From an uncultured Clostridia bacterium (lineage in GTDB: Bacteria; Bacillota; Clostridia; UBA1381): a DNA stretch of 64,000 bases. Under the pieces are notes generated by a model. The model was not told where the DNA came from, ran no database searches, and saw only the letters and a program-made list of their open reading frames with translations. The position numbers were made by a program, and so were the translations under genes. Shown here piece after piece: positions 42,227 to 45,412 of the stretch (its first letter is position 1; each line of letters opens with the position of its first letter). The DNA is taken from NCBI GenBank assembly GCA_947623955.1, contig CANQIP010000007.1, forward strand, positions 1 to 64,000, written 5' to 3'.

Positions 42227-42568
42227 GTAGGGGCGACCCTCGCGGTCGCCCGCCCCAAAAGACCCCCTCTTTGAGGGGGGGGTCTAAACTTGCAAAGCAA
42301 GTTTAGGGGGGTGTTATAATGTGATACGAATTTTATACACCCCCCGAAATCAAAGATTTCGACCCCCTCATAGAGGGGGTCATGCGGTCAGCGGTGCGAA
42401 TTTCGCCCCCCTCATAGAGGGGGGTCATGTGTAGGGGCGGCTATTAGCCGCCCGCAAGCCTCTCCTTGAGGAGAGGTGGCATTGCGCAGCAATGACGGAG
42501 AGGTGGCATCTGATTTGAACGACCACCTCTCAGTCGCCTTCGGCGACAGCTCCCCTCAAGGGGAGCCA
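42227..42568. repeat. Composite palindromic repeat cluster 2
   Basis: At least six hairpin units, including paired inverted half-elements GACCCCCTC...GGGGGGTGT and ACACCCCCC...GAGGGGGTC, plus a CCTCTCC-type composite (42458-42567). Confidence 0.85.
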
Positions 42569-42609
42569 CACACAGCATCACATTTTCCTAAAATTTCCAA
42601 ATATTTTAG

Positions 42610-44968: not shown

Positions 44969-44998
44969 GAAAATTCCCACCTTAGGGCGGGAATTTTG
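44969..44998 (+). terminator. Terminator after the SLH protein
   Basis: AAAATTCCC...GGGAATTTT hairpin. Confidence 0.6.
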
Positions 44999-45001
44999 TA
45001 T

Positions 45002-45117
45002 GCCTCCCTTGTTAAAGGGAGGGGGACCGCCGTAGGCGGTGGAGGGATTCATTGTAAAATTAAAAAGGAATCCCCCAGTCACACTTACGTGTGACAGCCC
45101 CCTTTGACAAGGGGGCC
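45002..45117. repeat. Composite palindromic element, copy A (cluster 3)
   Basis: GCCTCCCTTGTTAAAGGGAGG...GGAGGGATTC-AT core-GAATCCCCCAGTCACACTTACGTGTGACAGCCCCCTTTGACAAGGGGGCC. Confidence 0.85.
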
Positions 45118-45121
45118 TTTC

Positions 45122-45406
45122 GTAGGGGCGACCCTTTACTACAGCGTTTGTTGCTGCGCAACACGCCTACGACGCTAAAGCGTCGTCCACCTCGGAGAGG
45201 GGGTCGTGCGTTTTTGTGAATTTTGCCCCTACGTGAGGCTCCCCTTTGCTACGGCGTTTGTTCGCAAGCGAACACGCCTACAACACGCAAGCGTGTTGTT
45301 CACTTGAGGGGAGCTGTCGCCGAAGGCGACTGAGAGGTGGTTTTAAAAATTCGTTGCCACCTCTCCGTCATCGCTCCGCGATGCCACCTCTCCTCAAGGA
45401 GAGGCA
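45122..45406. repeat. Palindromic repeat cluster 3 with two nested inner elements
   Basis: Inner elements at 45136-45190 and 45247-45304 share ACnGCGTTTGTT...AACACGCCTAC...CAC; the host element 45237-45406 is homologous to 42458-42567. Confidence 0.8.
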
Positions 45407-45412
45407 AACGGC

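Follow-up and report, generated by a model that had tools for sequence, protein, structure and literature searches.

Why does one palindromic repeat lie inside a hairpin of another, and was it directed to the tip of that hairpin? The question is raised by a single intergenic locus in the window, i.e., the 64,000 nucleotides of an uncultured Clostridia bacterium analysed here (contig CANQIP010000007.1, positions 1 to 64,000).

The interrupted hairpin and its insert

The host repeat, here called element A, is a palindromic repeat of ~110 bp, and its filled copy occupies 45237-45406. The first terminal hairpin of A, CTCCCC-TTGA-GGGGAG, is split in this copy by an insert which we designate F. The homology to the reverse complement of 42458-42567, proposed in a first-pass annotation, was confirmed: with the insert excluded, 45237-45406 is 87.7% identical to the reverse complement of 42458-42571 over 114 columns. 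The uninterrupted hairpin of A reads GGCTCCCC-TTGA-GGGGAGC, the interrupted one GGCTCCCC, then TTTGCTACGG...GTTCAC, then TTGAGGGGAGC. The same annotation placed a 58-bp insert at 45247-45304 within the loop. The insert and the split are real, but F measures 59 nt and extends from 45245 to 45303 or, equally, from 45244 to 45302, because a C at each join leaves the boundary ambiguous by one base; further, the site is the 5' edge of the TTGA loop, not its middle. The two hairpins ascribed to the insert are both present. The features are as follows (window coordinates).

42458-42567, minus strand: empty copy of A, with the uninterrupted hairpin GGCTCCCCTTGAGGGGAGC at 42549-42567.
45122-45134, plus strand: left half (GTAGGGGCGACCC) of the E2 hairpin, ending at the tip and joined to the second F copy; compared with intact E2, GGGCGACCCTTGCGGTCGCCC.
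45135-45190, plus strand: second, diverged F copy (TTTACTACAGCG...GTCCAC), ~80% identical, from sequence matches; absent from the first-pass annotation.
45191-45205, plus strand: right half (CTCGGAGAGGGGGTC) of the D hairpin, beginning at the tip; compared with intact D copies.
45237-45244, plus strand: 5' arm (GGCTCCCC) of the first terminal hairpin of A, read directly and the same as in empty copies genome-wide.
45245-45303 (±1 nt), plus strand: nested element F, 59 nt, TTTGCTACGG...GTTCAC, in full TTTGCTACGGCGTTTGTTCGCAAGCGAACACGCCTACAACACGCAAGCGTGTTGTTCAC; delimited by filled and empty host families and by orthologous loci.
45253-45278, plus strand: hairpin 1 of F, GGCG(TT)TGTTCGC..GCGAACACGCC, with a TT bulge, near-invariant among copies; from the fold and pair counts.
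45280-45299, plus strand: hairpin 2 of F, ACAACACGC..GCGTGTTGT, variable in sequence, its pairing kept by compensatory changes; from pair counts.
45304-45405, plus strand: remainder of host A, i.e., TTGAGGGGAGC as 3' side of the interrupted hairpin and the other hairpins up to ..CTCAAGGAGAGGC; homologous to reversed 42458-42560 and to ~35 further copies.

When the filled copy is folded as single-stranded DNA, the stem of A closes over both hairpins of F (z -4.2 versus shuffles). An alignment of 31 distinct F sequences has standard pairs in 97.1% of the pair cells, and both sides have changed in 7 of the 16 F pairs (hairpin 2: 6 of 8). On four of five covariation measures none of 500 shuffles scored as high; slid controls were likewise far below. 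This is how a recognised structure, be it DNA or RNA, would be expected to look. The ends of F, TTTGCTAC and GTTCAC, are not inverted repeats. Rfam 15 gave no match over F at the gathering score; the matches were sub-threshold, and none covered F in L001.

Variant forms of F exist. A class without the GTTCAC end is found in L037, L085, L129, L136, L196, L215, and L247; here hairpin 2 runs directly into a complete new host hairpin (..GCGTGTGGCTCCCCTTGAGGGGAGC), and GGCTCCCC flanks F on both sides. The F-like elements of L075, L089, and L103 possess the second hairpin of F and a different first hairpin; the one in L089 adjoins CCTCC, the Shine-Dalgarno complement, by a gene start, and CCTCCTACGCTACGC is repeated to its left and right. 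Three tandem F copies, joined TTCAC-CTTG-CTACGG, are located at 3699-3815 of L145 (minus strand). In genus g15 a third level of nesting is encountered, a hairpin CTGGTCGGACGCAAGCGTCC... inserted inside hairpin 1 of F (minus strand of L195 near 5733 and of L235 near 7679). As for a longer, gene-carrying element with F ends, the candidates were dismissed: F cores lacking the second hairpin are fragments, mosaics, or chance matches, not IS-like units.

Copies, hosts and orthologous empty sites

The genome to which the window belongs comprises 2.13 Mb in 56 contigs; similarity searches and fetched loci yielded ~28 copies of F (E below 1e-3) and 47 matches to the whole unit at 45237-45406, ~35 of which are uninterrupted A. 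With such numbers the insert is not a chance occurrence. F was found in 17 of the 101 genomes searched (the window's own counted), all from one family and six genera; most or all of the compared genomes are metagenome assemblies, and the copy numbers of F are approximate. Since an ordinary sequencing read is longer than F, assembly artefacts at the joins are unlikely. When 84,980 species genomes were scanned with an exact pattern there were, among the matches listed, only MAGs named Clostridia, Clostridiales, or Oscillospiraceae, many of the F-positive ones labelled Lapin or goat ileum. The related records are uncultured gut Clostridia/Oscillospiraceae MAGs. F was found neither in IMG/VR viral contigs (exact pattern) nor in PLSDB plasmids. 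Altogether 167 distinct F contexts from the genome and its relatives were examined and the nesting pattern holds; the ratios of filled to empty copies are not frequencies because the loci were fetched for containing F.

The flanks of the F copies identify A as one of many hosts in this genome. The others are given below, the bar marking the joint with F; still further hosts are present beyond these.

Host B: CCCCC|TTTGACAAGGGGG, also filled on the other strand.
Host C: CTCCCC|TAATAGGGGAG.
Host D: GACCCC|CTCATAGAGGGGGTC.
Host E1: GAACC|GTGTTC.
Host E2: GACCC|TTGCGGTC.
Host G: GGCGCC|CTCGACGTCC.
Host H: GGCGCC|CTCGACAGCC.

Over nine host families, what stands immediately before the right half of the hairpin is, with hardly any exception, its own left half or the F end GTTCAC; it is rare for other repeats to occupy these tips. 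F leaves both host arms in place, and the target inverted repeat is not removed. In hosts C and D and in some of g15 one or two C are missing at the left joint, i.e., the joints are clean within 1-2 nt; in the other hosts no bases are lost. Genus g15 from goat ileum has different host hairpins, and filled and empty versions again differ near the tip: in CCACCTCC|CTCAAGAGGGAGGC and CAGCTCC|CTCATAGAGGGAGCC F is situated just before CTCAAG or CTCATAG. Over two well-sampled genera, at least 15 different hairpins of unrelated repeats carry F in an equivalent position, displaced by 0-4 nt from the apex to its 5' side.

At the locus of the window itself no empty site was readable in the orthologue: in G008 the intergenic region between the same two genes (L251) contains a repeat set entirely different from that of window 44970-45412, and other loci were used. 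Such intergenic regions thus turn over very fast. L012 (this genome, C1) is empty, GCCTCTC|CTTGAGGAGAGG, and its orthologue L144 in G001 has a 59-nt F at exactly this position; the A element of L144 has a second, inverted F in its other terminal hairpin. L039 (this genome, C56) is empty as well, and the orthologous L156 and L247 from other records carry a 58-nt F, in L247 with a variant right end, GGCTCCC instead of GTTCA. In neither set is the target duplicated, and apart from one ambiguous C no base is lost. Duplicated bases at the junctions, for which a check had been suggested, are absent.

Within each host family, too, the empty state is the common one, and the filled form is therefore derived. 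The first-pass annotation had considered that the uninterrupted hairpin may arise by deletion. This is rejected: in the nine host families most copies are empty and F, where present, occupies a single point in each, and L012/L144 and L039/L156/L247 differ by exactly F. The insertion pattern is established, i.e., fixed ends, clean insertion at orthologous loci, many hosts, an asymmetric position at the apex, and covarying hairpins.

Hairpin tips, the CC|(C)T motif and fused half hairpins

Is it the hairpin or merely a short sequence which is selected? Left of F a CC is conserved; the right flanks depend on the host, many starting with T or CT, and most host joints read CCC|T or CC|CT. One may argue that this short CC|(C)T motif is all that is recognised, that the repeats simply carry it at their tips, and that the hairpin is incidental. 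Matched motif sites within 150 bp, either strand, are located at an apex in 30% of cases anyway, and in one g15 host F joins away from the apex, within the C-run of the 3' arm. Against this stands that 96 of the 146 copies with the standard right end have the joint between -4.5 and +0.5 nt from the apex, about twice the frequency of matched sites. For CCCT sites alone, F is at the apex in 61 of 83 (73%) compared with 35% of neighbouring CCCT within 200 bp (odds ratio 5). Further, 35 of the 63 copies whose site lacks CCCT are at an apex, and E1 is filled at its tip without any CCT. Targeting by sequence alone is therefore, in our assessment, unlikely. The nominal p-values of the apex comparisons, 6e-19 and 2e-11, are not to be taken literally, since the copies are not independent events: they have descent and host families in common. 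A better argument is that F recurs in at least 15 host hairpins.

Read in the orientation TTTG..TTCAC, the offset from the apex is nearly always 5'. A strict measure, the joint inside the minimum-energy apical loop, gave 26% and was replaced by the distance to the apex; the value is low because the joint usually falls 2-4 nt to the 5' side of the apex, within the closing pairs or next to them. By the automatic measure about a third of the F copies score off-apex, and some are clearly outside hairpins: single copies in L090, L092, L093, L102, and L108, and those at CACCTCATC in L088, L202, and L224. Copies outside loops, which the first-pass annotation regarded as adverse to its proposal, thus exist as a minority, set against 66-73% of the copies with the standard right end at 0-4.5 nt 5' of the apex and 30-35% for control sites. 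The preference of F for the apex is strong but not absolute. Targeting to a hairpin tip, originally deduced from one filled and one empty copy, is upheld on this broader basis.

Hairpin tips are also places where different repeats are fused. The second F copy of the window bridges the halves of two repeats, E2 left, F, D right (45122-45205), and other fusions of different hairpin halves at tips with F are present in L078, L121, and L193. A fusion without F is seen in L031, where the left half of E2 and the right half of B' share CCCTTG. Chains of 5' half hairpins occur in L198 (5950-6300), L174 (110-290), and L160 (minus strand, 7440-7050); the unit, which consists of a left arm and the part of F that ends at the apex of hairpin 1, recurs 2-3 times before one complete filled element. 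Such fusions and the chains in L198 and L174 would fit a process in which, at stalled forks or nicked tips, template switching or break repair by the host joins palindrome tips to other hairpin copies, F being the commonest pick-up. SbcCD is described as cutting hairpins 5' of the loop (PMC12323751), where F joins; yet neither SbcD nor a full-length SbcC was found in this genome or in most F-rich ones. Nor does such a process agree with the fixed ends and near-constant length of F at dozens of sites, with clean orthologous insertions between two intact host arms, or with the rarity of other repeats at host tips. We consider it improbable.

This brings us back to integration of F as a unit. We judge it somewhat probable that F, a short element with fixed ends, is mobile but non-autonomous and cleanly integrates 5' of hairpin apices, mostly at CC|(C)T and in any repeat family, served in trans by a single-strand transposase (HUH/Y1) or something similar. 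The target would be the single-stranded DNA that becomes accessible at the tip when a hairpin or cruciform is extruded. Joining may be carried out by an HUH/Y1 enzyme, a REP- or IS200/605-like single-strand transposase or a similar protein, and the repeated, clean insertion at the tips of unrelated hairpins suggests that the mover of F recognises not only a sequence but also the folded shape of DNA. It is also conceivable, if somewhat doubtful, that an unrecognised enzyme integrates F by choosing DNA shape, the single-stranded 5' side of a hairpin or cruciform apex, in almost any host sequence.

Comparison of filled with empty hairpins of one family between close species makes many natural integration events available for study, and the nesting of F provides a concrete route for building mosaic palindromic repeats. 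If apex targeting is true, the F copies would be a natural record of hairpin or cruciform formation in living cells and would lead to an enzyme for which a structure, not a sequence, marks the site of joining.

Candidate mobilisers and known systems

Y1, RAYT, IS110, reverse transcriptase, and SbcCD were looked for in F-bearing genomes and no mobilising enzyme could be tied to F; because MAGs are incomplete each absence is weak by itself. Y1/RAYT was set aside as mobiliser since its presence or absence does not track F; the same applies to IS110 and reverse transcriptase, which are missing from F-rich genomes. SbcCD was discarded as hairpin opener given its absence, noted above, from the window's genome and most F-rich genomes. 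Most of the palindrome-rich genomes compared yielded no SbcD and no full-length SbcC, yet these are present in a few close relatives (G000, G003, G005-G011 versus G001, G013-G015); a loss of SbcCD might let palindromes accumulate.

Classical REPs and REPINs are, like F, intergenic palindromes of high copy number, thought to be moved by RAYT (TnpA_REP), and one may ask whether F is a REP of the GTAG type moved by the resident RAYT. On its reverse strand F reads GTAG-GCGTGTTCGC..GCGAACaaACGCC, i.e., a GTAG foot beside hairpin 1, here imperfect with an AA bulge, and forward-strand joins are mostly C|T, resembling TnpA_REP cleavage (PMC8266576). RAYT is present in G000, G001, G007, G008, G010, and G011, and in 6 of 8 F-rich versus 2 of 8 F-poor genomes of the genus. 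Yet GTAG and the cleavage-like C|T joins are on opposite strands: CT (or CA) cleavage on the same strand as GTAG is not what we find, the C|T joins being on the CTAC strand and the joins on the GTAG strand mostly A|G or G|G. In the F-bearing G005, G015, and G029 no RAYT was found, G029 being 98% complete with many F copies. Within 3.3 kb around the RAYT gene of this genome there is no copy of F, and the repeat inside its reading frame is a different GTAG repeat. A REP moved by RAYT is consequently a very improbable description of F. The single RAYT of this genome, L047 1459-2034 (minus strand), contains two in-frame copies of a GTAG palindrome, GTAGGGGCGAACCGTGTTCGCCCG, which read GANRVRP and GRTRFAPT. 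REPs inside tnpA_REP genes were already known (Quentin et al., 2018, PMC6006769).

IS608 habitually inserts into the lagging strand. F has no orientation bias, 42:42 by GC skew and 43:44 by genes, and a control of 47:7 demonstrates that the proxy works; such an absence of bias would agree with a target which cruciform extrusion makes accessible on one strand as well as on the other. Single-strand transposition of the IS200/IS605 type involves bulged or variable subterminal hairpins, no target duplication, and a conserved flank at the 5' side only (PMC8266576, PMC6006769), features which F shares with these elements and with PATEs. F differs in that it has only 59 nt, targets hairpin apices, and shows no replication-strand bias; also, no parent element with the same ends, nor any F-like full-length hairpin 1, was found beside the 13 Y1 loci examined, a subset of the Y1 genes of the genus. 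The likeness to HUH/Y1 single-strand transposition is drawn from the fixed ends, near-constant length, clean joins, bulged subterminal hairpins, and mainly 5' conserved bases; it is a likeness and would not make F a member of that group.

Other systems resemble F in part. ISPpu9, ISPpu10, ISPsy8, ISPa11, and ISRm22 are mobile DNAs which, like F, use palindromic repeats as insertion site; these are full-length ISs with one REP family each, whereas F is a minute repeat with many hosts (PMC1525189). IS1272 also targets an inverted repeat without target duplication, yet replaces it (PMC5678879), whereas F keeps both arms. A MITE of a DDE transposon was rejected as F ends are not inverted repeats and no target is duplicated. 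Mitochondrial double-hairpin elements and GC clusters are, like F, tiny intergenic mobile hairpins with fast turnover, merging, and shuffling; they reside in organelle DNA, GC clusters have putative AG/ACT target duplications, and in the portions of these reports consulted no apex targeting was found (PMC2800124, PMC4478555).

The closest precedent are GTAG and CGTC REPs, small palindromic repeats inside other palindromes as is F. Di Nocera et al. (2013, PMC3733652) mention briefly that in T. roseum GTAG-23 is located inside small palindromes, of which hundreds of copies are empty, and that GTAG-15 and CGTC-1 dimers occupy longer ones. There, each family has one target consensus, whereas F enters at least 15 unrelated hairpins; and neither orthologous filled and empty sites nor the position relative to the apex were given, both of which are available for F. 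In the open-access literature searched, there was no account of a single small element that inserts at the tips of many unrelated hairpins. REPs inside palindromes were already reported in 2013, and what would be new is a single element in many unrelated hairpin tips.
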